Shown one piece after another: positions 5,580 to 33,156 of a stretch of DNA of 64,000 nucleotides. Position numbers and translations under genes: made by a program. Source of the stretch: an uncultured Maribacter sp. (GTDB taxonomy: Bacteria; Bacteroidota; Bacteroidia; Flavobacteriales; Flavobacteriaceae); assembly GCF_947495965.1 (NCBI RefSeq), contig NZ_CANMBB010000001.1, forward strand, positions 248,001 through 312,000, in the 5' to 3' direction. Each line of letters opens with the position of its first letter. Within the stretch, counting starts at the first letter, position 1. The notes beneath the pieces were generated by a model. It ran no database searches, was not told where the DNA came from, and saw only the letters and a list, made by a program, of their open reading frames with translations.

Positions 5580-5939
5580 CTAACCATACTTTGCCTTTAG
5601 TCTTACTTTTTGAAATTCTCTCTTTAGGATTAAAAAAGAGACTTGTTCTGCTACCTCCACAACATCTGTTACTTTAACTCCCTTAAACACTTTCTCAGGA
5701 ACATCTATAACATATAACAAATTAAGATAGTCATTAAATTTTTCCATGATGAGAAGATACAATTTCTCATGAAGCAACCTTTGTAGCTCTATATTTTTAA
5801 TATCCTCTGGCACATCAAAAGGAACATTTGCTAAAGAAAAATCTTTAGTTAGTTGCGCAACTAAATTAGCATACAACAATTCTTTTACTGCTTGTTGTAA
5901 TACCTCTTCACTATTGTTATAGTTCTCTTCCAAAAACAC
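5580..5939 (-). CDS. Conserved hypothetical cytoplasmic protein
   Basis: A 119-residue, mostly helical and acidic protein (LQQAVKELLYANLVAQLTKDF... IMEKFNDYLNLLYVIDVPEKVF). No signal peptide, membrane segment or known motif is visible. Codon use matches its neighbours, which supports a real gene. It sits immediately downstream of the galE terminator, so it may have its own promoter. I do not recognise the family. Confidence 0.6.
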   Translation of the reverse strand: MFLEENYNNSEEVLQQAVKELLYANLVAQLTKDFSLANVPFDVPEDIKNIELQRLLHEKLYLLIMEKFNDYLNLLYVIDVPEKVFKGVKVTDVVEVAEQVSFLILKREFQKVRLKAKYG

Positions 5940-5957
5940 TTATTCTCTAAAATATAA

Positions 5958-5991
5958 AAACAGGAGAAATATAAATATGTTTCTCCTGTTT
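5958..5991 (-). terminator. Rho-independent terminator of galE
   Basis: Inverted repeat AAACAGGAGAAA / TTTCTCCTGTTT with a 10-nt loop. On the minus strand it is followed by a T-rich tract, 23 bp past the galE stop codon. Confidence 0.75.
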
Positions 5992-6013
5992 AATAAAATT
6001 ACATTCCCTTTAA

Positions 6014-7030
6014 TTAACTTCTTATTTTCTGCTCCCAATCCCAAGCAGACTTCATTGCTTCATCTAAAGAATATTGAGATTTCCAACCTAAAACCTCATT
6101 TGCTTTAGTTGTATCTGCATAAGCAGTAGTAATATCTCCTGCTCTTCTATCTACTATTTTGTAATTTAATTTTTTGCCAGATACTTTTTCAAAGCTCTTA
6201 ATTACCTCCAAAACAGTACTCCCCTTTCCTGTCCCTACATTAAATACTTCATAATTATCAGAGTTTTTACCTTCTAATAATCTTTTTAATGCCAAAACAT
6301 GCGCTTTTGCCAAATCTACTACATATATATAATCCCTAACACATGTACCATCAGATGTAGGATAATCATCTCCAAAAACAGATAATTGCTCTCTAAGACC
6401 TGCACCTGTTTGTGTTATAAAAGGCACTAAATTCTGTGGCACTCCAATTGGTAATTCCCCAATCTGAACACTTGGGTGCGCACCCATTGGGTTAAAGTAT
6501 CGTAATGCTATTGCATTTAAGTTTGCATTTACTTTACAAGTATCTGCAATTATTTCTTCTCCCATTTGTTTGGTATTACCATAAGGAGATTCTGCCTGTT
6601 TTACTGGAGCACTCTCTGTTATTGGCATTTCATCTGCTTGCCCATAAACTGTACAAGAAGAGCTAAAAATAAAACTAGCTTTGTTTTTAGCTGCTAACTC
6701 TTTTAGTAGATATACTAATGTTCCTATGTTATTTTCATAATACAATAATGGCTTTTCTACACTCTCGCCAACAGCTTTTGATGCCGCAAAATGAATAACA
6801 CCTTGTACATCTGCATGCCGTTTAAAAAAATCTTCTACTTTAGATTTTTCTTTTAAATCTATTTTTTCAAATAAGGGTGTCTTTCCAGTAATAGTAGTAA
6901 TTCCTTCCAAAACTTTCTCAGAAGAATTAGAGCAATCATCAATAATTACTACTTCATAACCTTCATTTTGTAATTCTACTACCGTATGCGAGCCTATAAA
7001 CCCAAGACCTCCAGTAACTAGTATTTTCAT
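6014..7030 (-). CDS. galE: UDP-glucose 4-epimerase
   Basis: NAD-dependent extended short-chain dehydrogenase/reductase that interconverts UDP-glucose and UDP-galactose for glycan synthesis. The Rossmann motif GGLGFIGSHT is at the N-terminus. The catalytic Ser/Thr region is FSSSCTVYG, and the Tyr-Lys pair is in SPYGNTKQMGEE. LRYFNPMGAHPS and the C-terminal GTGKGSTVLEVI are typical of GalE. Length of 338 residues is normal. It follows a sugar aminotransferase gene on the same strand with a 55-bp gap, so the two may supply sugar precursors for surface polysaccharide. A clean terminator follows. Confidence 0.95.
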   Translation of the reverse strand: MKILVTGGLGFIGSHTVVELQNEGYEVVIIDDCSNSSEKVLEGITTITGKTPLFEKIDLKEKSKVEDFFKRHADVQGVIHFAASKAVGESVEKPLLYYENNIGTLVYLLKELAAKNKASFIFSSSCTVYGQADEMPITESAPVKQAESPYGNTKQMGEEIIADTCKVNANLNAIALRYFNPMGAHPSVQIGELPIGVPQNLVPFITQTGAGLREQLSVFGDDYPTSDGTCVRDYIYVVDLAKAHVLALKRLLEGKNSDNYEVFNVGTGKGSTVLEVIKSFEKVSGKKLNYKIVDRRAGDITTAYADTTKANEVLGWKSQYSLDEAMKSAWDWEQKIRS

Positions 7031-21810: not shown

Positions 21811-23016
21811 TTACTTACTTTCTAAAACAGGAGAACCTGTTTTCTTAGCAATAATATTGTTAAAATGATTTATATACATTTCTGTAATTGCAGACATTGG
21901 TAAAGAACATGCTGCTTTGTAATTTGCTTTACCTAAACTTCTTCTATACGCATCATTAGTTAAGATATTTTCTATTGCGTTTGCTAAAGAATCTACACTG
22001 TCTGGCTCAAAAAACTCTCCTTTATACCCTTCCTCTCTTACTAAAATACTAAGGTCTCCTAAATCTGGTAAAGAAACTGCTTTTCCATAACTACCGGCTT
22101 GGTGCAATACACCTGAACTACCTGTTGTAGAGGTATACGGAAAAACAACTACGGCACTATCTCCAAAAATTTTAGGCACATCTTCCTCTGCTACATATCC
22201 TGTAAATCTTAGCTGAGAAACCTGCGCATATTTCTTAGCCATTTCATCTAAATATCCAGGAGTATTTGGACTATCTGTTCCTGCAATTACTATCTCAATA
22301 TTTTCAGATGTTCTTTTTCTAATTTCCTCAACAGCCTCTATTAATATTTCGACCTTTTTATAAGTTCCAAATTTTCCAAAAGCCATTACTTGTTTTGGTC
22401 CTTCTGGTAAATTATAATCTGGCTCTGGGGGAGTTTCAAAAGCTCCATGGGGAATTAAAGTAATATTTGTAGCATCATACTTTTTCTTTAATGTAGTTAC
22501 ATATTTACTAATAGTTACAGCTACAATATCTGATGCTAAAACAAAACGTGTTAACGTTGTTCCTATAAAATTATATATTCTTTGTAATAGCTTATTGTTA
22601 GTAAATCCAGCATTTGCTAAATCTACCTTTTCTAAAATATTATGTAGTAAAGATATTGTTGGTATACCACGGATTTTACATATAAAAGGTAATAATAAAC
22701 CTAATGCCGCAGGCACTTTTTTATCTCCAAACTTTAAAAACTGTAAGTTAAATAAGACCGCATCTGGTTTACTTTCAGAAATTGCTTTATTAATTCTAAA
22801 AATATTAGAATAACTGTTAAAATCCCAGGCTTCTTTTACTGTTATTTTACAACCTTTTTCTTCAAAATTTAAATCTTTAAGTTCTTTAGTTTTATCTGTT
22901 ATTAAGGTAATTTCTGTTACCTGATCTTGTAATCTAAAATGTTTTACTAAATGGTAGCCATACTCCGTTAGGGTAACCTTACTAGGTGGGTAGGCTGTTA
23001 CTATTGCTAATTTCAT
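21811..23016 (-). CDS. GT4 family glycosyltransferase
   Basis: A 401-residue GT-B fold enzyme. The start KLAIVTAYPPSKVTLTEYGYHLVKHF is the donor/acceptor glycine-type loop of GT4 enzymes. The C-terminal half has VMAFGKFGTYKKVEILIEAV, IVIAGTDSPNTPGYLDEM, LRFTGYVAEEDVPKIFGDS and VFPYTSTTGSSGVLHQAGSYG, including the ExxG-like region reduced to a Ser/Gly-rich form. It transfers a sugar from a nucleotide donor in the cytoplasm. It is the last gene of STAS-flippase-GT4. A comparable pairing of GT4 with a flippase-like protein is PelF-PelG. Polymer identity is unknown. Confidence 0.88.
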   Translation of the reverse strand: MKLAIVTAYPPSKVTLTEYGYHLVKHFRLQDQVTEITLITDKTKELKDLNFEEKGCKITVKEAWDFNSYSNIFRINKAISESKPDAVLFNLQFLKFGDKKVPAALGLLLPFICKIRGIPTISLLHNILEKVDLANAGFTNNKLLQRIYNFIGTTLTRFVLASDIVAVTISKYVTTLKKKYDATNITLIPHGAFETPPEPDYNLPEGPKQVMAFGKFGTYKKVEILIEAVEEIRKRTSENIEIVIAGTDSPNTPGYLDEMAKKYAQVSQLRFTGYVAEEDVPKIFGDSAVVVFPYTSTTGSSGVLHQAGSYGKAVSLPDLGDLSILVREEGYKGEFFEPDSVDSLANAIENILTNDAYRRSLGKANYKAACSLPMSAITEMYINHFNNIIAKKTGSPVLESK

Positions 23017-23047
23017 ATTTATAGGTTTAGGTTATAACTTGGGTATA

Positions 23048-24298
23048 TTATTCTGTTTTTTTAGATATTTTCTTTTTATTGATAAAATATATAAGTTGTA
23101 CTACTAAAAGTATAGTCATTGCAATTATTTGCATATGTACTACCATTTCTAAATTTTCATGAAAAAACGCAACTAATAGTACTTGAGACATTCCTAACAA
23201 ACCAGAAAGTATTACTGGTACGTAGTGATCTAATGACAAAAAGTAATATGCAAAGATGTTAGAGATTGCAAAGAGTGATGTTGCTAAAGCATATTGCCAT
23301 AGCAAACCTGCTACAGATACATAAGCATCTCCAAACATTAGCGTAATAATTAAATCTGGAAAAAGATAACATACTACAACTATACAGGCCGATAGTAAAC
23401 TTATATAGGAAACATATTTAAATAAAATTGGTGCAGTTGGCTCTCCGTCTTTTTGTTTTTGTACTACCGTTGGTAGTAACAACATTACAAACATCCAAGC
23501 TACAAAATAAACAACCCTACCAATTAAAGCCAATGAAGCATACAAACCAGCATCTAAAGCATTAAAATAATGTTTTACTAAAAGAACATCACTATTATTA
23601 ATTATTATTTGGGTAAGTTCATAACACGCTGTTAACCAAATAAATTGAGAAACTTTTTTTGTGTTTTCTGGTAACATTTCTCCAACTTTCTTAAAGGATA
23701 ATCCTTTAACATCTGAAGGAAATAAACCAAACAAAAACGATATTAATATTCCTAAAGCCACTAATATTCCTGGCTGCAAAGGCACTAAATAAATTAAAGC
23801 AATGGTAATTAATAACCTACTCCACATTTCTGTTTGGTAAGTAATAGATAATTTATTGAACTTTAATTGCCCTTGGAAAGTACCTCTATTTACACTCATA
23901 AAAAAGTAACAAGGTATGCCTATAGCAAAAACTACAAACATCCAATGACTTTCCGTATTAAAAATGATTTGCAACTTTTTTGCAAAAACTAATATTAGCA
24001 AACCAATAACAAGACCTACATAACTAGCTTGTTTATATATTTTGTTTCTAAAATTTTGCCACTCTTCATCTGCAAAAATAACTGCAAATTTTGCAGTTGC
24101 TAACTGAAAAGTCATTCCCATGAAAGACAATACTAGTAATAAGGTTACCAAAAGAGCTGCTTCTGCAAATGCTGCAGGGCCTAAAATTCTTCCTAAAAAA
24201 AGATTGTACAGGTAGTTACCTCCATTTACTAGAAGTACACTACCCATAAACCATTGTTCGGGGGAAACTTTTTTTAATACAAGTTTAAACGCGGTCAT
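23048..24298 (-). CDS. Polysaccharide flippase (MOP superfamily, Wzx/PelG-like)
   Basis: A 416-residue integral membrane protein with about 12 helices. The start WFMGSVLLVNGGNYLYNLFLGRILGPAAFAEAALLVTLL is the classic polysaccharide biosynthesis protein (Polysacc_synt) opening, where ILGPxxFG precedes helix 2. It ends with a Lys-rich tail (INKKKISKK). Such proteins move lipid-linked saccharides across the inner membrane. It overlaps the STAS gene by 14 bp and is 31 bp from the GT4 gene, so it is translated from the same mRNA. Confidence 0.9.
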   Translation of the reverse strand: MTAFKLVLKKVSPEQWFMGSVLLVNGGNYLYNLFLGRILGPAAFAEAALLVTLLLVLSFMGMTFQLATAKFAVIFADEEWQNFRNKIYKQASYVGLVIGLLILVFAKKLQIIFNTESHWMFVVFAIGIPCYFFMSVNRGTFQGQLKFNKLSITYQTEMWSRLLITIALIYLVPLQPGILVALGILISFLFGLFPSDVKGLSFKKVGEMLPENTKKVSQFIWLTACYELTQIIINNSDVLLVKHYFNALDAGLYASLALIGRVVYFVAWMFVMLLLPTVVQKQKDGEPTAPILFKYVSYISLLSACIVVVCYLFPDLIITLMFGDAYVSVAGLLWQYALATSLFAISNIFAYYFLSLDHYVPVILSGLLGMSQVLLVAFFHENLEMVVHMQIIAMTILLVVQLIYFINKKKISKKTE

Positions 24299-24587
24299 TG
24301 CTTAAAATATAATGCGTTTTAGTATTTTTCATAATAGAAGCTATTTTTTTGTTTTGCCTACCTATTATAGATATAATCTTATTTTTTTCTACAGCTCCCT
24401 TATATAATTTTTCTAACATATAAGCACCACTTTTATCAATAGCGCCTACCTTTTCTATATTAAGAATAATACTTTCTGATATTGGAATGATAGATTCAAA
24501 ATAATTTTTTAATGATGTCATATTCTGAGAAGATATATTTCCCAAAATTTCAAACATTCCGCTATTCTCTTTAATTTCTATTGCCAT
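24285..24587 (-). CDS. STAS domain protein (anti-sigma factor antagonist-like)
   Basis: A 100-residue single STAS domain: MAIEIKENSGMFEILGNISSQ, then SIILNIEKVGAIDKSGAYML with the Ser position that is phosphorylated in SpoIIAA-type proteins (KSGAYML), and a C-terminal helix. Such proteins act as phosphorylation-controlled switches, typically with a serine kinase and a phosphatase. Neither partner is visible in the window. Its position as first gene of the flippase-GT4 unit suggests control of polysaccharide output, by analogy with STAS-gated exopolysaccharide systems. That link is inference. Confidence 0.85.
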   Translation of the reverse strand: MAIEIKENSGMFEILGNISSQNMTSLKNYFESIIPISESIILNIEKVGAIDKSGAYMLEKLYKGAVEKNKIISIIGRQNKKIASIMKNTKTHYILSNDRV

Positions 24588-24943: not shown

Positions 24944-27016
24944 ATGCAAAAATATAGTGTCCTCCTATTTCTATTTATATCCCTTATAATAAGGTCTCAA
25001 GAAGATATGAGTAAAGGTTTTAAATTTCTTGAAAACGGAAATTTTGAAAATGCAGAGTCTTTTTTTAAAGGTATTCTAGAAAATAATCCTACAAATAAAA
25101 CAGCAAGATTATGTTATGGTAGAGCAGTTGGTTTAAGTGGAGAACCAAAAAAAGCAAATGCTTTATTTTCAGATTTACTTAAAGAATACCCTGGAGATTT
25201 TGAAGTAGAAATTAATTACAACGAATCTTATTTATGGTCTAAAGATTATGAATCTGCCAAACCATTATACAAAAAATTAGTTGCCGACTTTCCTGATAAG
25301 TTTGGTGCCGTTTTAGGATATGCAAATACTTTAAGTAATCTTAAAGAATATAAATTAGCTCTAGAATGGGTAGATAAGGCTATAGCCTTAGACCCCAAAA
25401 ACCAAAGTGCATTAGTATCTAAAAAGTATATGCGTTTAGGGTACGCAAATGAATTTGTTAATAACCAACAATATGCAGAAGGAGAGACATATTTAAAAAG
25501 CATTTTTAAAGACTTTCCTGAGGATAAAGATGCTTTAAAGAATTTAGCAAATCTTTACCTAATTACTAAGAGTGTAGAAAAAGCAAAAGAAGCCTATAAG
25601 AGATATGCAACTAATGCTAAGGATTCTATAGTTGCACTAAATGGCATTGCCCTTGCAGAACACATTGGAGAACAAGATAAAGAGGCTTTAAATATTGCTT
25701 CTAAGGCAAAAAAAGCCGTACTACCATTAAAAGATACAAAGCTAACAGAAAGCACTTATAATAGATATATACAGGCTTTAATATGGAACCAAAAATATAA
25801 AAAAGCTAGATTAAAAATAGATAGTCTTAACAAGGCAACTCCAAATAGAAATTGGATAATGGCTCTTGACGCTACTCTAGGCATGTACACAGCAAACTTT
25901 AAAAAGAGTATTGCTAATTATGATAAAATACTTAAAAATGATAGCGCTTCTTTTGATGGAAATTTAGGAAAGGCAAATGCCTTATTTGCTTCTGACAAAA
26001 TAATACCAGCATATAAAGCAGCTAAGAAAACCTTAGTTTATTATAAAAAACAAAAAGATGCTTCTAATTTTATTGAAAAATTAGATTTAAAATACACTCC
26101 CAGCGTAGAGGAGCATGCAAGCTATACTTTTGATAATGGTAAAAACACCGCTTTTTCTAGTAAAACTTCAGCAGACTTAGCGTTATCCACAAAATTTGCA
26201 TCATTCTTTTCCTATCAATTTAGAACAACAGAGAATAGTATAAATTTAAATAAAGCTACTTCTCATTTAATGACAGCTGGCTTGGAATATAAACTTATTC
26301 CAAAAACTAATCTTAAAGCTATAATTGGTATAAATAAATCTATCTCTACCGATACAGATTTTTCACAACCTGTTTTAGATATTAGGTTACAAACACAACC
26401 TTTTATTTTACAAAACTTAGACTTTATTTACACGAGAGAAGTACAGAGTTTTAATGCCGACCTTATTGAAAGAGAAATTGTTATGAATCATTATGGCTTA
26501 ACCTATAATTTAGGAACCACTTTTAATTTAGGATGGTACACACAACTTATGTACACAGAACAAACAGATAGTAACACGAGAAATTTATTATTTAGTTCTT
26601 TGTATTATAATTTATTTAAAAAACCTGCTGTAAAAGTTGGTGTTAACTATCAGTACTTAAGCTTTGCTAACCAAGTACCAACTATATACTTTAGTCCGTC
26701 TATCTACCAAGCTGTGGAATTATTCGCAGATATTAGAGGGAAATTCTCCGAAAAAACAACTGCTATGATTAGTGCTGCTTCTGGATACCAAAAGGTAGAA
26801 AAAGACCCAATGACTGTTATTTTTAGAGCAGAGACAGGTATACAACATAAATTTTCTAAAAGACTTAACGGTTCTGTATATGGCAAGTATAGTAATATAG
26901 CTTCTGCAACTGCAGCAGGGTTTCAATTTACAGAGGTAGGCTTAAAAATAAAGTGGCTTTTTACTAAACAACCATTATTCTATAATAAATTACAAAAGCA
27001 AATAGCTTTAAAGTAA
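24944..27016 (+). CDS. TPR-containing outer-membrane beta-barrel protein (YaiO/BcsC/PelB-like layout)
   Basis: A 690-residue secreted protein (signal SVLLFLFISLIIRSQ). Residues about 20-380 are tandem TPRs: GFKFLENGNFENAESFFKGILENNPTN, YKLALEWVDKAIALDPKNQ, NYDKILKNDSASFDGNLGKANALFASD. Residues about 390-690 are amphipathic strands ending in FQFTEVGLKIKWLF, a barrel of YaiO type. A periplasmic TPR scaffold joined to an outer-membrane pore is the layout of exopolysaccharide exporters BcsC, PgaA and PelB and of AlgK/AlgE. I infer it exports the polymer made by the flanking glycosyltransferases. It is divergent from STAS-flippase-GT4 and convergent with the signalling operon. Confidence 0.8.
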   Translation: MQKYSVLLFLFISLIIRSQEDMSKGFKFLENGNFENAESFFKGILENNPTNKTARLCYGRAVGLSGEPKKANALFSDLLKEYPGDFEVEINYNESYLWSKDYESAKPLYKKLVADFPDKFGAVLGYANTLSNLKEYKLALEWVDKAIALDPKNQSALVSKKYMRLGYANEFVNNQQYAEGETYLKSIFKDFPEDKDALKNLANLYLITKSVEKAKEAYKRYATNAKDSIVALNGIALAEHIGEQDKEALNIASKAKKAVLPLKDTKLTESTYNRYIQALIWNQKYKKARLKIDSLNKATPNRNWIMALDATLGMYTANFKKSIANYDKILKNDSASFDGNLGKANALFASDKIIPAYKAAKKTLVYYKKQKDASNFIEKLDLKYTPSVEEHASYTFDNGKNTAFSSKTSADLALSTKFASFFSYQFRTTENSINLNKATSHLMTAGLEYKLIPKTNLKAIIGINKSISTDTDFSQPVLDIRLQTQPFILQNLDFIYTREVQSFNADLIEREIVMNHYGLTYNLGTTFNLGWYTQLMYTEQTDSNTRNLLFSSLYYNLFKKPAVKVGVNYQYLSFANQVPTIYFSPSIYQAVELFADIRGKFSEKTTAMISAASGYQKVEKDPMTVIFRAETGIQHKFSKRLNGSVYGKYSNIASATAAGFQFTEVGLKIKWLFTKQPLFYNKLQKQIALK

Positions 27017-27121: not shown

Positions 27122-27838
27122 TTACTTTAAAAGATTTAAATGTTGCATAAGTTTAGGCTTATTAGACCTGCTAATAGGAACAACATTTTTGTCTATTAAC
27201 ACACTATTATCTTCTATATCTATAATTTTTGTGAAGTTTATTATATAAGAACGGTGTATTTGCAAAAAAATATCTGTAGGTAATTTTTCTTTTATTTTCT
27301 TTAATGTATTGTGTACTTTATATTCGGTTTTTTCTGTTTTTATATTAATATAATCTCCTAAGGCTTGTATTACAAGTATCTCATTGAACTTTAATTTAAT
27401 TAAGCGGTGATCTATATTTATAAATAACTCCCCTAAACCTAGAGTATTATTAGTACTGGAAGCATTTTCTATAATAGCTTGGTTTTGTATTGCCGTTTTT
27501 ACTTTATTAAGACATTTAATAAAACGGTCTTTAGTAAGGGGTTTTACCAAATAATCTACAATGGCCTCGTATTCATAAGCCTGTAGTGCTAAATCTTTAT
27601 CCGATGTTATTAAAACTATTTTGGGAGGGTTTTTTAAAGTCTCTACAAAATCAAAACCCGTAAACCCTGGCATATGTATATCTAAAAAAACAACATCTAC
27701 CTCTTGTTTATTTAAGAACTTTATTGCGTCTATTGCATTAGAAAAGTCCTCCTCTACGGATATTTCGGGGGAATCTTCACAAAATTTAGCTACCACTGCT
27801 CTAGCGGTTGCCTCATCATCTACAATAATGCATTTCAT
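27122..27838 (-). CDS. LytTR family response regulator
   Basis: A 238-residue two-domain regulator. The receiver (1-120) has VDDEA, phosphoacceptor Asp53 in FLDIHMPGFTGFDF, ITSDKD and Lys in VDYLVKPLTKDRF. The C-terminal LytTR DNA-binding domain reads IQALGDYINIKTEKTEYKVHNTLKKI... FLQIHRSYIINFTKI. LytTR regulators bind direct repeats near promoters and often control extracellular polysaccharide and virulence genes. It is the last gene of the H-NOX/FIST operon and starts 1 bp after the Hpt stop, so it is the likely output of that phosphorelay. Confidence 0.92.
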   Translation of the reverse strand: MKCIIVDDEATARAVVAKFCEDSPEISVEEDFSNAIDAIKFLNKQEVDVVFLDIHMPGFTGFDFVETLKNPPKIVLITSDKDLALQAYEYEAIVDYLVKPLTKDRFIKCLNKVKTAIQNQAIIENASSTNNTLGLGELFINIDHRLIKLKFNEILVIQALGDYINIKTEKTEYKVHNTLKKIKEKLPTDIFLQIHRSYIINFTKIIDIEDNSVLIDKNVVPISRSNKPKLMQHLNLLK

Positions 27839-27839
27839 A

Positions 27840-28163
27840 TTAAATATTTAAAATATAATTTTCTATGGTAATTAGTATCCTTAAAAAATCATCCTTAAGC
27901 TTACTATTCCCATATTTTAGTTGTTCTTCAAAACCAACTGCTAAACGATACCCTTTTTGCAAGCCTAAGATATTAAATTTATGTTTTAGTTTATGAACTA
28001 TTTCTGCGGTAGCATTATAATCTTCTTTTGCTAAACAATCTATATAGGTTTGTTTTTCTACTGGGAATTCACTTTTTATTATTCCTAAAAATTTTTGCTC
28101 AAAAGATTGGTCTCCTCCAGCCAATTCTTTTACGTAATTTAAATTTGGTTGCTCTTCACTCAT
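27840..28163 (-). CDS. Stand-alone Hpt phosphotransfer protein
   Basis: A 107-residue helical protein with the Hpt motif TAEIVHKLKHKFNILGL: His57 is the phosphoacceptor and the HxLK....G spacing is kept. Hpt proteins shuttle phosphate between receiver domains. It lies 4 bp after the second kinase and just before the LytTR regulator. Since neither kinase here has its own receiver, the phosphate donor is probably the stand-alone receiver upstream in the operon (inference). Confidence 0.85.
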   Translation of the reverse strand: MSEEQPNLNYVKELAGGDQSFEQKFLGIIKSEFPVEKQTYIDCLAKEDYNATAEIVHKLKHKFNILGLQKGYRLAVGFEEQLKYGNSKLKDDFLRILITIENYILNI

Positions 28164-28167
28164 AATC

Positions 28168-29217
28168 TTATTTTTTTATTGTAAAATAAAAAGTAGTTCC
28201 ATTTCCTAATTGGGACTCTAGCCATACTTCTCCTTCATAAATATTAATTATTTTTTTAACTAAAGCTAACCCTATACCAGTTGCATTTGCATTATTTTCC
28301 AATTTTTTAAACATATTAAATATGCTTTCTTGGTATTTTTCTGGTATTCCTTTTCCGTTATCTTTAATACTAAATTTCCAATATTCTTTTTTTTCTATGG
28401 CCTCTACTATTATTTTTCCTTCTTTTATATCTTCTGTTGCAGTAACCGCATTAATAATTAGATTTTTAAATAACTGTTCTAATTTATATTTATCCTTAAA
28501 TAAAACAGGTAATTCTCCCTCTACTACTAGTTCTATATTTTGCGGTACATATATTGTATTTTTTATTTCTTCTAATAAATGAGTTATAGAAACATTAGTT
28601 TTCTCTTCTTCATGCGCTTCTAAAGTTGCATGCCTTAATATACCATCTATTAAATTATCTACTTTGGTTAGGTTTTGTATAACTAAAGAGCAATTGAATT
28701 TACTTTCCTCCGAAAAATTTTCCTTTTCCTCTTCAGATATCCAACTCATTAAAGTATGCATATTTCTTATTGGCGACTTTAAATCATGAGAAACCATATG
28801 CGCATAATTATTTAAAGACTCATTTTGTTCTTCTAGATCTTTTAACAACTCTTTTCTTTCTGCCGTTAAGTCAATAATTCTTTCTGTCTGCTCTTCTATT
28901 CTTGCTGCTATTTTTAATGGATCTATATGTTCTTCTTCATAATCTACAGCATTTATAGAATCATCATCCATTACTTTTACTACTTTACTCAAAGAAGTAA
29001 ATACATTTTTTTGAGCTTCTATTTTTTCTCTTAGTTCTGCATTTACCATAGAAAGTTCTTTAGAACTAATAGTTGTAGATCTTTGTATCATTTCTAACTT
29101 TTCATCGTTATTATAATACGATTTACTAATGGCCAATAAAAACTCCTCCATTTCTGGTGTACCTTCTAAATCATTGGGTAAAAATTTTCTTATTTGTCTT
29201 TTTAATAAAGAGTGCAT
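28168..29217 (-). CDS. Soluble histidine kinase paired with FIST protein
   Basis: A 349-residue kinase without membrane helices. The N-terminal helical region (1-70) is followed by a coiled coil (EEQTERIIDLTAERKELLKDLEEQNESL), the HisKA box NYAHMVSHDLKSPIRNMHTL (His144) and the HATPase domain with N-box LIINAVTATED, G1 IKDNGKGIPEKY, F-box IFNMFKKL and G2 ATGIGLALVKKI. A lack of a sensor domain suggests it takes its signal from a partner. Its start overlaps the stop codon of the FIST gene (TAATG), strongly coupling the two. It is probably the FIST protein's effector kinase. Confidence 0.9.
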   Translation of the reverse strand: MHSLLKRQIRKFLPNDLEGTPEMEEFLLAISKSYYNNDEKLEMIQRSTTISSKELSMVNAELREKIEAQKNVFTSLSKVVKVMDDDSINAVDYEEEHIDPLKIAARIEEQTERIIDLTAERKELLKDLEEQNESLNNYAHMVSHDLKSPIRNMHTLMSWISEEEKENFSEESKFNCSLVIQNLTKVDNLIDGILRHATLEAHEEEKTNVSITHLLEEIKNTIYVPQNIELVVEGELPVLFKDKYKLEQLFKNLIINAVTATEDIKEGKIIVEAIEKKEYWKFSIKDNGKGIPEKYQESIFNMFKKLENNANATGIGLALVKKIINIYEGEVWLESQLGNGTTFYFTIKK

Positions 29218-30350
29218 TATTCGCTTATAAGGGTTAATGTCATGGTTTGGTTATGCAATTTACATTTTTCTTGCCCCGCAAAAGGTGCCATTTCACCATA
29301 AGAATAAAAACCAGCTACTTTTGCTTGTTCTCCAATAACTTCTATTACCTCTTCTACTTCTTCTTCTGTTCTTTGGTCCATTACAAGTTTTCTGCCCACA
29401 CAACTAACTAAAAGCCCAAATTCTGGTTTCGTTTTTCTATCTCTCATAGCAAAATTTGCTGCCGTAAAAGCGCCTTCTGCAATATCATCTACGGTTGCCA
29501 TCATTAATTGCACTTTAGACCCTACTGGCACGTCTCCTGCCAGTATCATACTATTATCCTCTTCATTTATATTTAAAATAGTACGCACTATTGTTTCTTT
29601 CTCTCCTGGCACTTTTACACTAAGCGGATATAGTAATGCTGCCTTTGGTAATTCTTTTACTTTATCGCCTAAATATTTTTTATATAAATCTAGAGCTGGT
29701 TGCCCATCTAATTCATACAATATATTATCTACAGATTTTGTTATTATTCTTTCTGGACCAAACCCTGTCCAACCTCCATAATTTGCACAACTAACCTCTA
29801 GCGTTTCTCCATAAAGTCCTATTACAATAACCTCCCCTTGTTCAGGGTTTTTATTATATGCTGCTAAAGTTTTTTCAAACCTAGAATCATCACCACAAAG
29901 TCCGCCAGAAATATTTATATTTTTTTCTAAATATTTTTCTAATCCTTCAATTAAAGTGCTGCCATTTACTGAGCTACCTTCTGATACTACAAAAACATGT
30001 TTAAGACCATCTTGAGGTAATGTTTTTAAAAGATCTACTCCTAATGCTTCGGTATTGTCTTTATAATTTTTACTATTAGCACTTGTTATTCTAAACGTAC
30101 TTTTTTCAAATTCTATAGCAGTTAAACAAATACTATTATCTATTACTTTTTCTCCTAAAATTTCGCCAGAAGTAGAGCCAAATACAATCTCGCCATCTGG
30201 AAAAAGTGATTTAATTTCTTCATAAATATGACTGTTTTCTAATAAGAATCTATTTCCAAAAACTAATACTAAAGGTTTTGTTAGTTCATCATTACTACCT
30301 AAAAAACGCCACTCTTTATTATCTTCCTTAATTGCTTGTTGTATTTTCAT
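29217..30350 (-). CDS. FIST domain sensor protein (NosP-type candidate)
   Basis: A 377-residue soluble protein with FIST_N (about 25-220: LVLVFGNRFLLENSHIYEEIKSLFPDGEIVFGSTSGEI, VFVVSEGSSVNGSTLIEGLE, ISGGLCGDD) and FIST_C (about 225-365: YELDGQPALDLYKKYLGD, SCVGRKLVMDQRTEEEVEE, AGFYSYGEMAPFAGQ). FIST proteins are ligand-sensing proteins. One group, NosP, binds haem and senses NO and is encoded beside histidine kinases. The genes on both sides here are kinases, one overlapping by 23 bp and one by 1 bp. I cannot decide from sequence whether this member binds haem. Confidence 0.88.
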   Translation of the reverse strand: MKIQQAIKEDNKEWRFLGSNDELTKPLVLVFGNRFLLENSHIYEEIKSLFPDGEIVFGSTSGEILGEKVIDNSICLTAIEFEKSTFRITSANSKNYKDNTEALGVDLLKTLPQDGLKHVFVVSEGSSVNGSTLIEGLEKYLEKNINISGGLCGDDSRFEKTLAAYNKNPEQGEVIVIGLYGETLEVSCANYGGWTGFGPERIITKSVDNILYELDGQPALDLYKKYLGDKVKELPKAALLYPLSVKVPGEKETIVRTILNINEEDNSMILAGDVPVGSKVQLMMATVDDIAEGAFTAANFAMRDRKTKPEFGLLVSCVGRKLVMDQRTEEEVEEVIEVIGEQAKVAGFYSYGEMAPFAGQEKCKLHNQTMTLTLISE

Positions 30351-31941
30351 TTTGTTTTTTTAGGGTGAAGAAAAAAGTGGTTCCTTTACCTATTTCACTT
30401 TGCAACCAAACTTTTCCTTCGTATAAATCTATAATCTTTTTAACGATAGAAAGTCCTATTCCTGTAGACCTTTCTTTATTTCCAATGGATTGAAATATTT
30501 TAAATATTTTTTCGTGATATTCTTTAGGAATACCAACACCATTATCTTTTACACTAAATTCCCAATGTGTGCCCCGATCCTCACACCCAACTTCTACCAA
30601 ACCTTTTTCCCGTTCTATATGTACTACTGCATTACTTAAAAAATTTTGTATTAATTGATGAATTTTAGTGCGATCTGCATAAATTGTAGGTAACTTATTT
30701 GCTGTTTTTACAGTTACATGATCTGGTATAAAAATTATATCTTTTATCTCTTGTACAACCTCATTTACATCAACAATAGAGTTATCTAAATTATCACTCT
30801 TTATGGTAGAGTATTTTAAAATACCATCTATAAGTTTATCCATAGATTCTACCTTATCCTGCATCATTTTTAGATTATACACCCCATTATCATCTAATTT
30901 ATCTTTATAATCTTCATACATCCAAGTAGTAAGTGCACTAATGCTTCTTAAAGGAGATTTTAAATCATGAGAAACTATATGTGCATACTCTTGTAGGCCT
31001 TTATTACTAGATTCTAAATCTTTAACTAATTGCTTTTTTTCTTCTTCTAGCTCAATTTCATGAGTTATATCTTCTATTAAAGCTACTTCATACCTTAGCT
31101 CTCCTTTAATATTCCTTACGGCACTAACTGTTGTTTTTGCAGAAAAAGAAGAACCGTCTTTTCTTAAGTATTTTTTTACTACAGAAAATTCATCTATTTC
31201 TCCTTTAATAAGTTTTTCTCTGTATTCTTTAGAAGCATTTAAACTTTCTAAAGAAGTAATTTCCATTGGGTTTATAGAGCGTAACTCCTCTTCTGTATAT
31301 CCCAACATTTTTTGCATAGTATTATTAACTTTTATCAAAGTATCTTTAGAAGTTAACCAAATACCTAACGGAGAATGCTCTACAATAATGTCTAAACGTT
31401 GCCTTTGTGTGTTTAAAAGATTTTTCATTTCTAACTCGGCAGTAATATCTCGGAATACGCCTTGTGCTCCACTTATATTTCCTTTTTTATCTTTTATTAA
31501 ACTACCATTTACCTCTATAAATTTTAGTTCATTATTTTTTGTTATTATTCCTGGTCTAAATTTTTTAATTAAACCTGTTGTATATAAAGATTTAAAAGAT
31601 GCTTTAGAATACTCTTTATAATCAGGATGAATAAGTTCTGTAAGTTTTATATTTTCTTCTTTAGAAAATCCTAAAAATTCTTCTGCTGCAGAATTCATTT
31701 TTATTATATTACCTTTTAAATCCATTATTAGATAGGGGTCAATAATGTTTACAAAAACATTATCTATCTGTGCTGTCTTTTGGTCTAAAAGATTTTCTAG
31801 TACCTTATTCGTTTGTTTTAAATGTAAACTAGCATCATACAATTCTTTAGACTTTTCCTCTAGAATTCTTTCTGCTTGTTGCCTAGCCTTCTTTTGTCGT
31901 TCTAGTGCCTTTTTAAGTAAAATAACTTCCTTACTATCCAT
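30328..31941 (-). CDS. PAS-PAS histidine kinase downstream of H-NOX
   Basis: A soluble kinase of 537 residues from the ATG chosen here (MDSKEVILLKK); a TTG five codons earlier is possible. The N-terminus is a charged coiled coil (RQKKARQQAERILEEKSKEL). Two PAS/PAC modules follow (about 65-175 and 185-290, ending QGVFRDIT and VALIEDIT). The HisKA box is YAHIVSHDLKSPLRSISAL (His about 325). The HATPase has FLSNAVVHIE, VKDNGVGIPKEY and STGIGLSIVKKI. The start ATG overlaps the H-NOX stop by a few bases. The coiled coil is of the style I associate with H-NOX partner kinases. It is the likely H-NOX-controlled kinase. Confidence 0.92.
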   Translation of the reverse strand: MDSKEVILLKKALERQKKARQQAERILEEKSKELYDASLHLKQTNKVLENLLDQKTAQIDNVFVNIIDPYLIMDLKGNIIKMNSAAEEFLGFSKEENIKLTELIHPDYKEYSKASFKSLYTTGLIKKFRPGIITKNNELKFIEVNGSLIKDKKGNISGAQGVFRDITAELEMKNLLNTQRQRLDIIVEHSPLGIWLTSKDTLIKVNNTMQKMLGYTEEELRSINPMEITSLESLNASKEYREKLIKGEIDEFSVVKKYLRKDGSSFSAKTTVSAVRNIKGELRYEVALIEDITHEIELEEEKKQLVKDLESSNKGLQEYAHIVSHDLKSPLRSISALTTWMYEDYKDKLDDNGVYNLKMMQDKVESMDKLIDGILKYSTIKSDNLDNSIVDVNEVVQEIKDIIFIPDHVTVKTANKLPTIYADRTKIHQLIQNFLSNAVVHIEREKGLVEVGCEDRGTHWEFSVKDNGVGIPKEYHEKIFKIFQSIGNKERSTGIGLSIVKKIIDLYEGKVWLQSEIGKGTTFFFTLKKQNENTTSN

Positions 31942-32476
31942 TTTGTACAATATCAAATTTAACTTCGGTACCGTCCTCTTTTATAAGTGTGTACTTTACT
32001 GTTGCTGTAGCATTAAAATGCTCAAAAGTTTTTTCTATTAAGCCATGTGCTAATCTATATAAACCTCTTGATGAGCAATATATTAAAGACATAGAGTACT
32101 GGGTAGTTTCTAATATTTTAAATGTTGGTAGTTGTGCCTCTGGGTAAAGTTTTTTTACATGCACATGAATATGGTCTTCTATAGCATAAATAAGACCTAA
32201 AGGAGATTTATAATTTTCTACAACCTCTGGATGTGCTGTTACTAAGCTATTAAATAAGAAAAGGCCAAAGGCATAGATTAAATCATCTACAGGGGCTTTA
32301 ACCTCTGCACTAAGATTTGTTATTAAACTTAGCATCTCATTAAAATCATACGTACCTATAGATGTATAGATACCTTCTGAAGGTAAATTTGAATTTTCAA
32401 TAATGGAATCAACGACTTCTAAGCCAAATTCTAACTCCACCATCTCTAAAAATTCAGTAAAAACAATTCCTTTCAT
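31934..32476 (-). CDS. hnoX: H-NOX (haem-NO binding) sensor protein
   Basis: A 180-residue HNOB-family protein: MKGIVFTEFLEMVELEFGLE, IYTSIGTYDFNEMLSLI, DHIHVHVKKLYPEAQLPTF. The proximal haem ligand is predicted at His102 and the propionate-binding YxSxR motif is Tyr133-Ser135-Arg137 (YCSSR), the key family signature. The residue matching the distal Tyr that gives O2 binding in Thermoanaerobacter H-NOX appears to be Leu (position about 142), so NO selectivity is likely; this alignment is by eye. Bacterial H-NOX proteins inhibit or tune an adjacent kinase or cyclase, here the overlapping PAS kinase. Confidence 0.93.
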   Translation of the reverse strand: MKGIVFTEFLEMVELEFGLEVVDSIIENSNLPSEGIYTSIGTYDFNEMLSLITNLSAEVKAPVDDLIYAFGLFLFNSLVTAHPEVVENYKSPLGLIYAIEDHIHVHVKKLYPEAQLPTFKILETTQYSMSLIYCSSRGLYRLAHGLIEKTFEHFNATATVKYTLIKEDGTEVKFDIVQNG

Positions 32477-32561
32477 TCCAAAAAATATATAAAATTTCTT
32501 GAATAAATGTAGGAATTATACTTCTTTTTTTAAAAATAATGTTGTGAAACTTAATATTTTG

Positions 32562-32966
32562 TTAGGCTTTAACTAGCTCGTTATTTTGCCAATACGTAAA
32601 AACACTTTCCAATTTTTTTTCGTAATCTTCATATTTTAAAGGCTTTATAACATAACCTGCTATACCAATACGGTAACATTCTAGCAAATCTGCTCTATTT
32701 TCAGATGTTGTAAGAACAATTGTAGGAAGATATTTTAAAACAGGATCTGCTTTTAATATTTCTAAGAATTCTATACCACTCATTTTAGGCATATTTAAGT
32801 CTAAAAGAATAATATCCGGCAAGACCTCATCAGACTTTAAAAATTCAAGTCCTTCTTCCCCATTTTTAGCTTCTGTAATTTTGTGCTTTAATTGTAACTT
32901 AGAAACTGTTCTATTAAGTTTCATAGTTTCAATAGCGTCGTCTTCAATAAACAGTACGTTTAACAT
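32562..32966 (-). CDS. Single-domain CheY-like response regulator
   Basis: A 134-residue lone receiver: FIEDDAIETMKLNR, phosphoacceptor Asp56 in ILLDLNMPKMSGIEFLE, Thr in VLTTSEN and Lys in VIKPLKYEDY. This is the Rcp1-like short receiver class. It lies 85 bp upstream of the H-NOX gene on the same strand and may open the operon. As the only receiver without an output domain here, it is a good candidate for the relay step between the kinases and the Hpt protein. Confidence 0.9.
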   Translation of the reverse strand: MLNVLFIEDDAIETMKLNRTVSKLQLKHKITEAKNGEEGLEFLKSDEVLPDIILLDLNMPKMSGIEFLEILKADPVLKYLPTIVLTTSENRADLLECYRIGIAGYVIKPLKYEDYEKKLESVFTYWQNNELVKA

Positions 32967-33156
32967 ATTATAAGATTTATACTACAAATTTCTTTTTTTT
33001 ATTTAATATAGTAATGAACTAACGGTAAAATGCAATTTACTATAGACGAATGGAAAATAAATAAAGATAAGAACAGAATTAACTATGCATTTAAACGATG
33101 AGAGCCTATTAAATAATAGAATAGCAAAGCCCCCTATTTGTTAATAAAATTAACAA

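Follow-up and report, generated by a model that had tools for sequence, protein, structure and literature searches.

Why would a bacterium keep an H-NOX and a FIST sensor, each with its own histidine kinase (HK), in a single gene run, and do the two report to one output or to two? The question is raised by a 64,000-nucleotide stretch of an uncultured Maribacter sp. genome (contig NZ_CANMBB010000001.1, positions 248,001 to 312,000), which we refer to as the window and number from its first letter. A sequence-only reading had described a minus-strand cluster of seven genes at 27122-32966, and we recovered all seven open reading frames (ORFs) at those positions, with the named domains recognized by Pfam. 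In the direction of transcription they run, on the minus strand, REC–H-NOX–HK1–FIST–HK2–Hpt–LytTR, REC being a lone receiver, Hpt a histidine phosphotransfer protein and LytTR a response regulator (Table 1). The proposal that two sensors feed one relay gained support from sequence on four counts, namely separate kinase modules, related kinase cores, one conserved relay and a sensor-kinase cassette at one slot; on these grounds the two sensor-kinase pairs probably converge on one Hpt-LytTR relay. The reading we favor, and consider likely, is a modular phosphorelay with two plug-in inputs, in which H-NOX would act via the HK1 module n1 and FIST via the HK2 module n2 on a single REC-Hpt-LytTR relay.

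We first asked how widely the arrangement occurs. A draw of 299 genomes from the family (Flavobacteriaceae) contained H-NOX in 105, FIST in 87 and both in 68. Our sample of H-NOX loci comprised 101 places, i.e., 100 of the 109 found in family genomes plus the window, with eight places left out. FIST lay within the H-NOX gene run at 55 of these 101 loci, and the complete seven-gene order was present at 47. The sequence-only reading held that the two sensors usually occupy separate operons; this does not hold in the family, where the order HNOX-HK-FIST-HK joins them at 53 of the 101 loci. Chance adjacency of the two sensor genes was considered and ruled out, as the order is kept in 53 of the 55 FIST-bearing loci. 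A five-gene version that is minus only the FIST–HK2 pair (REC-HNOX-HK-Hpt-LytTR) accounted for 34 of the 48 loci outside these 53. Across the phylum, H-NOX occurred in 27 of 395 genomes drawn, and 20 further phylum H-NOX loci were read, 12 of them from outside the family, one of which (L148) showed the seven-gene order. We also scanned named genomes, using a FIST alignment, and took the best 80 loci from a longer match list. H-NOX and FIST shared one run in 46 of the best 80 (including loci of Kordia, Maribacter, Cellulophaga, Aquimarina, Winogradskyella and Leeuwenhoekiella), 21 were units of FIST and kinase whose run had no H-NOX (Saprospiraceae, Cytophagales, Chitinophagaceae and others), FIST was followed by another protein in 8, and the remaining 5 were family loci that were cut short or lacked H-NOX in the run. 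The arrangement is thus mainly a trait of the family rather than an oddity of one genome, and the gene cluster is conserved in marine bacteria.

Several variants deserve mention. The relay also exists in a sensorless form, REC-HK-Hpt-LytTR, in genomes without an H-NOX match (L363, L364, L368, L374 and L377). Directly upstream of one sensorless relay operon lies a gene for a protein with a nitrite/sulfite reductase half-domain and rubredoxin (L334:1549-2988), and ORFs of similar size precede several other operons. Lutibacter oricola (L171) has two RECs, HK1, FIST, HK2, Hpt and LytTR, with H-NOX elsewhere in its genome. L078, close to the end of its contig, holds a copy that is decayed or truncated: its FIST is broken (140 aa), and its H-NOX match contains an internal stop. 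In L091, a second, variant H-NOX locus, the Hpt domain lies at the C-terminal end of a protein of 226 aa (5723-6403). To the eye, the N-terminus of this protein looks like a degraded receiver; Pfam matches Hpt alone. Finally, in L278 (the L052 region) FIST immediately precedes H-NOX and a hybrid kinase of 1156 aa that matches n1 at 32 bits, a layout that is an alternative way to link both sensors.

The FIST–HK2 pair behaves as a cassette. Within the 101 loci, FIST lacked HK2 in two only, L052 with its other arrangement and L078 with its broken FIST, and a second kinase followed H-NOX without FIST once (L131). We built a core tree with FastTree from REC, H-NOX, Hpt and LytTR for 81 of the 101 loci (45 with FIST-HK2 and 36 without), on which presence of the pair changed at least 18 times, with 10 changes forced by starred branches. 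Across the 45 complete operons, cassette distances tracked core distances (r 0.93, reached in 0 of 2000 shuffles), and the best fit is vertical descent during which the pair was lost repeatedly, each time as a unit. Gene-family distances were uninformative as a pairing test, since all pairs fell between 0.65 and 0.87 in these 45 operons with no discrimination between them. Two genomes carry detached units, FIST-HK2 in L273 and HK1-FIST-HK2 in L274, and retain a five-gene operon elsewhere (L034 and L049), which makes it plausible that detached FIST-HK2 units signal in trans to the same relay; neither Hpt nor LytTR lies beside L273 or L274, and no response regulator was matched nearby. In L058 and L100, a divergent FIST (~20% identity, without His366 and Cys363) occupies the same operon slot.

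Next, we examined the kinase cores. In a tree of 315 cores, 146 of 153 HK1 proteins fell in one clade (support 0.84) and 110 of 111 HK2 proteins in another (0.94); the two clades joined (0.93), and all 22 other kinases of the window genome fell outside. In the window, the core of HK1 shares 41% identity with that of HK2, and neither exceeds 32% identity to any of those 22. Residues R+7, L+12, W+15 and M+42 of the dimerization and histidine phosphotransfer (DHp) domain are common to HK1 and HK2 and absent from most other kinases of the genome, and such positions are said to set partner choice in work on EnvZ and HK853. The phosphoacceptor histidine is kept in 153 of 153 HK1 and 111 of 111 HK2 proteins. 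Some observations pull the other way: four HK1-labelled kinases and two outside H-NOX kinases sit on the HK2 side of the tree, support for the HK1 clade is 0.84, and the window HK1 core is 43-45% identical to three FIST-adjacent kinases of Saprospiraceae, above its 41% identity to HK2. Given this closer likeness, duplication of a kinase within the operon is uncertain. The same likeness would suit two independent pathways that share an operon for co-expression only, with HK1 signaling to Hpt-LytTR and HK2 to another regulator, as would the FIST-HK pairs without Hpt-LytTR outside the family and the detachment of FIST-HK2 in two genomes. We nevertheless regard this as distinctly improbable, considering the joined clades and shared DHp face, the position of HK2, which in 52 of the 53 HNOX-HK-FIST-HK loci comes after HK1-FIST and before Hpt, and the response regulators at hand, which are REC and LytTR alone in the window operon and for which no substitute was matched near the detached units.

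The relay downstream of the kinases retains its phosphorylation sites throughout, with REC D56 and K108 each in 96 of 96 proteins, Hpt H57 in 92 of 92, and LytTR D53 and K99 in 88 of 88. The relay has the appearance of a core, and the sensors that of additions to it. Under the plug-in phosphorelay, nitric oxide (NO) on the H-NOX haem would set HK1 activity through n1, and FIST, via its own ligand, would set HK2 activity through n2; both kinases would phosphorylate the lone REC, the phosphate would pass via Hpt to LytTR, and LytTR would bind double repeats and control its own operon. In relatives, LytTR may also control a nearby gene for a protein sorted by the type IX secretion system (T9SS) and a STAS/polysaccharide-flippase pair, which would amount to a surface or matrix response. 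A weakness of this scheme is that the order of its REC, Hpt and LytTR steps is taken from the textbook. Alternatively, the lone REC could be a regulator or phosphate sink, the kinases phosphorylating LytTR directly and Hpt draining to REC. Direct transfer from a kinase to a receiver is common, the kinases here carry no fused REC, and even sensorless relays retain the lone REC; yet REC, Hpt and LytTR have stayed together with every phosphosite in place, as expected for the parts of a four-step relay, and we consider the sink arrangement unlikely.

We then turned to the N-terminal modules of the two kinases. The first ~70 residues of HK1 (n1) and the first ~118 of HK2 (n2) differ from each other, and in the proteins scanned neither region was covered by a Pfam domain. 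The n1 and n2 profiles were trained on HK1 and HK2, so that their self-matches (154/154 and 111/111, respectively) are not independent. Outside the training set, n1 matched 6 of the 9 further kinases adjacent to H-NOX, the same family contributing two of these six, and 1 of 24 FIST-adjacent kinases, this one borderline at 14 bits; none of 111 HK2 proteins carried it, nor did any of 46 ORFs taken from the genome's other kinase loci. Fifteen further H-NOX loci (8 of 18 plasmid H-NOX matches and all 7 H-NOX places in 20 named genomes), representing Bacteroidota and Alpha-, Beta- and Gammaproteobacteria, carried n1 in the gene directly after H-NOX in 13 cases, two of them weak (E 4e-3 and 4e-4), with no other match among their 1679 ORFs (E 0.01). 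Where annotated, these genes encode a kinase (ATP-binding), EAL or GGDEF protein. Conversely, n2 was present in 23 of 24 FIST-adjacent kinases outside the training set, the sole miss being Nostoc (L135), and in 8 of 8 other FIST-adjacent proteins, five of which were scanned and proved to be GGDEF-EAL proteins (L215 and L234, from Alteromonadaceae and Aliikangiella) or SpoIIE proteins (L207, L222 and L226). In the proteins that follow related FISTs, n2 is joined to a kinase, a hybrid kinase, GGDEF-EAL or SpoIIE as the output. There was no n2 match in 154 HK1 proteins or in the 9 H-NOX-adjacent kinases. Beside a second FIST type (L259-L267 and L269-L272; 374-404 aa, with a paired kinase of 575-616 aa that also matches a receiver profile), n2 was found in 14 of 14 kinases at 32-46 bits, and no H-NOX was seen among the neighboring ORFs shown.

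Together, these data make n1 and n2 candidate docking elements for H-NOX and FIST, tracking the two sensors across phyla, and the modules also appear to respond to the loss of a sensor. Of 17 relay loci fetched from H-NOX-less genomes, seven were used (L363, L364, L368, L371, L372, L374 and L377; in L371 and L372 the kinase and REC lie on the opposite strand from Hpt-LytTR). Five were dropped for a contig-end cut or an unreadable start, L373 and L375 because REC was otherwise placed and the kinase was not HK1-like, with no n1 match shown, and L376, L378 and L379 because Hpt occurred without the kinase; L171 was kept separate because H-NOX is present elsewhere in its genome. In the seven, n1 scored 26, 16, 27, 48, 4, 13 and 4 bits, compared with a median of 98 and a minimum of 31.5 bits where H-NOX is present (n=154), i.e., n1 was eroded below the reference minimum in six. 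Five of the seven have normal kinase cores (259-283; median 278), and four of these five fall below the n1 minimum; the other two have lower kinase-core scores. On the FIST side, n2 is likewise divergent in the divergent-FIST operons L058 and L100 (27.6 and 41.8 bits, versus a median of 139.6), while the low n2 score of L110 accompanies a short ORF. Docking is put in doubt by several points, the first being that adjacency and module tracking fall short of proving it. Of the 14 kinases that accompany the second FIST type, 11 give weak n1 cross-matches (12-18 bits), and low n1 scores are for this reason not specific; next to more distant FISTs (L135, L302-L305 and L275-L277) no n2 was found; the H-NOX-less relay L371 retains n1 at 48 bits, and L171, whose genome has its H-NOX only at another place, retains it at 51 bits; and some H-NOX-less assemblies are merely 82-90% complete. 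Among the distant FISTs, L276 and L277 are four-FIST runs that adjoin a single kinase of ~366 aa without n2.

What the two sensors detect bears on why both are present. The window H-NOX is a predicted haem NO sensor: its HNOB score is 124.8 bits (curated cut-off 25.5), and its His102 and Tyr133-x-Ser135-x-Arg137 are all present, confirming that these residues are intact as claimed. Across the 101 relatives, including the window, H102 occurs in 97, Y133 in 101, S135 in 101 and R137 in 95. The nearest solved relatives are PDB entries 6BDE (197.5 bits) and 6BDD (194.7 bits). The FIST protein had been called NosP-type, and thereby an NO or haem sensor. It does carry the FIST and FIST_C domains expected of NosP, but with 68.5 bits against the cut-off of 450 of the NCBIfam NosP equivalog model it is far from NosP, and that assignment was rejected, leaving the sensor claim unsupported. 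Eight other FISTs score alike on this model (46-98 bits), and two NosP-like plasmid proteins reach 355 and 366 bits, themselves under the cut-off. Conserved FIST residues are C317, R320, Y351, G352, E353, C363 and H366; of these, C317, R320, Y351, G352, E353 and H366 are common to FISTs at large, and for this reason no haem pocket could be identified from them. An AlphaFold2 model of FIST (predicted local distance difference test score 94.7) gave FBXO22 chains as best fold matches, with query-normalized template-modeling scores of 0.47-0.57, followed weakly by Toblerone-fold hydrolases. By sequence, a single-sequence query of the PDB returned 0 matches at E 0.01, and a profile search three weak ones (best E 0.45).

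These results frame the possibility that both proteins sense NO, FIST being a NosP-like haem protein and NO being measured twice, e.g., with two affinities. According to PMC12570481 and PMC8846402, NosP proteins, which belong to the FIST family, detect NO through haem and control kinases, and the window FIST keeps His366, which is conserved in 10 of 11 diverse FISTs. The distance from the NosP-like scores, the FBXO22-like fold and the lack of an assignable haem ligand among His and Cys residues shared by FISTs at large count against it, and we also set on that side the report of the FIST domain as a haem sensor (PMC8846402); double NO sensing is, in our view, doubtful. In the wider proposal, the operon would integrate two cues by means of sensor cartridges that can be interchanged: n1 and n2 would dock soluble sensors onto kinase, hybrid kinase, GGDEF-EAL and SpoIIE outputs and NO would be combined with a non-NO FIST signal on one relay. 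We advance it tentatively, as something that may or may not survive in full; if true, the cell combines NO with a second, non-NO signal read by FIST. The natural series on one core (both sensors, H-NOX only, or neither) makes each sensor's contribution measurable and bears on the question of why bacteria carry both H-NOX and FIST sensors, and the candidate modules would offer a sequence-based rule by which soluble sensors could be matched with their effectors in different phyla.

Finally, we looked for the output. LytTR proteins bind operators of two direct repeats about two helical turns apart. Direct CATTCRTCKAYAST repeat pairs scoring at least 23 of 28 were present upstream of 73 of 96 operons (the loci with REC next to H-NOX), compared with 0 of 96 shuffled regions, in which the maximum was 20, and the spacing was exactly 21 bp in 70 of the 73. 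Over the 101 loci (1.59 Mb) we counted 123 pairs; the reversed motif and three column shuffles gave 0 each, and four other spacings gave 1-11. Among 120 genomes, 24 contained the pair (≤3 mismatches) and 0 the control; 22 of the 24 have H-NOX and the other two the sensorless relay. The double repeat is probably the LytTR operator, as predicted from its sequence, and its position before LytTR's own operon therefore suggests autoregulation; the conserved operator would also be a ready reporter of output. Elsewhere in the loci lie 39 sites, 33 of them within 400 bp upstream of a same-strand ORF. Nine proteins near such sites were scanned: two, of ~850 aa and encoded directly after LytTR, combine DUF6923 with a T9SS sorting domain, another two are STAS proteins, three are polysaccharide-flippase-like and two were unmatched. 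A surface or matrix output might be inferred from these, from relatives only. The window itself is less persuasive. Its pair scores 23 of 28, with a first repeat of 14/14 and a poor second one of 9/14; no further target rose above control in its genome (single-site matches at ≤2 mismatches, 27 vs 27), and no site was found at its neighboring STAS and flippase genes. The only exact single-site match in the window genome is at this operon. In relatives, a STAS/flippase pair beyond a convergent ORF, similar to that of the window, carries operator-like sites.

How does the operon compare with known systems? Nisbett 2019 is said to claim in its title that NosP and H-NOX converge in Shewanella oneidensis. 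Presumably the sensor genes of that species lie apart, whereas here both sensor-kinase pairs, Hpt and LytTR share one operon; in vibrios, too, we take H-NOX and NosP not to be paired in one operon. As in the S. oneidensis H-NOX/HnoK network, H-NOX is predicted to control a kinase and a FIST-family protein to feed the same network, but the S. oneidensis output is c-di-GMP (cyclic diguanylate) turnover and the window's seven genes include no c-di-GMP enzyme. HnoX-HnoK-HnoB of S. oneidensis is described in PMC8846402. NosP-VpsS-LuxU of Vibrio cholerae and H-NOX-HqsK-LuxU of other vibrios resemble the proposed window relay in that a sensor and kinase feed a phosphotransfer protein, and differ in using hybrid kinases on a quorum-sensing relay (PMC6769237 and PMC8738867). 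The NosP-NosK-NosR operon is similar in that a FIST protein adjoins a kinase with no recognized sensory domain and ~130 residues before DHp; it has a NosP, a degenerate HD-GYP output and three genes, with no H-NOX, Hpt or LytTR, according to PMC12570481. FIST is listed among group-1 H-NOX neighbors in a published neighborhood network with nodes at ≥20% of genomes (PMC8738867), and FIST/H-NOX co-occurrence as such is not new. Within the open-licence literature, we recognized no description of this operon, its operator or the two kinase modules, nor of any H-NOX operon with LytTR. The Kordia algicida OT-1 operon (L190) is a member of the same kind, with the same seven-gene order, n1 at 106 and n2 at 157 bits, a double site of 24/28, and proteins 39-66% identical to the window's. 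Its H-NOX is PDB 6BDD (179/179 residues; 6BDE differs by one residue), and crystal structures thus already exist for an H-NOX of exactly this system.

Table 1 Features of the seven-gene cluster and its upstream region (window positions)
Feature	Position	Strand	Details
Putative LytTR operator	33018..33052	-	Two direct CATTCRTCKAYAST-type repeats 21 bp apart
REC, lone receiver, 134 aa	32562..32966	-	Response_reg; phospho-Asp56, Lys108
H-NOX, predicted haem NO sensor, 180 aa	31934..32476	-	HNOB; His102, Y133xS135xR137
HK1, H-NOX-side histidine kinase	30328..31956	-	PAS x2 + HisKA + HATPase_c
Module n1, HK1 residues 6-78	31723..31941	-	95.6 bits; candidate H-NOX docking element
FIST sensor, 377 aa	29217..30350	-	FIST 141.8 + FIST_C 127.2 bits
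HK2, FIST-side histidine kinase	28168..29217	-	HATPase_c; phosphoacceptor His144
Module n2, HK2 residues 1-117	28867..29217	-	129.1 bits; candidate FIST docking element
Hpt, histidine phosphotransfer protein	27840..28163	-	Hpt domain; His57
LytTR response regulator	27122..27838	-	Receiver Asp53, Lys99 + LytTR DNA-binding domain

Order and packing predict that the seven genes form one operon. The gaps had been given as under 90 bp with overlaps, in agreement with the junctions of +85, -23, -23, -1, +4 and +1 bp that we measured in transcription order, where the -23 bp overlap of H-NOX and HK1 assumes that HK1 begins at its listed TTG; the likelier start is an ATG five codons further on, at 31941. 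A consensus scan found no terminator-like site within the operon. With TTG-start numbering the HK1 phosphoacceptor is His330, and HK2, although unmatched by Pfam HisKA, has the same SHDLKSP phosphoacceptor motif around its histidine. Hpt scores 20.2 bits, under the Pfam cut-off of 24.6, and its phospho-histidine is nonetheless invariant in relatives; the receiver (67.4 bits) and LytTR domain (71 bits) of the regulator are both above cut-off. The window genome has a single H-NOX match and a single FIST match. Downstream of the operon lie a convergent TPR protein gene at 24944-27016 (plus strand) and STAS, polysaccharide flippase and glycosyltransferase genes at 21811-24587 (minus strand).

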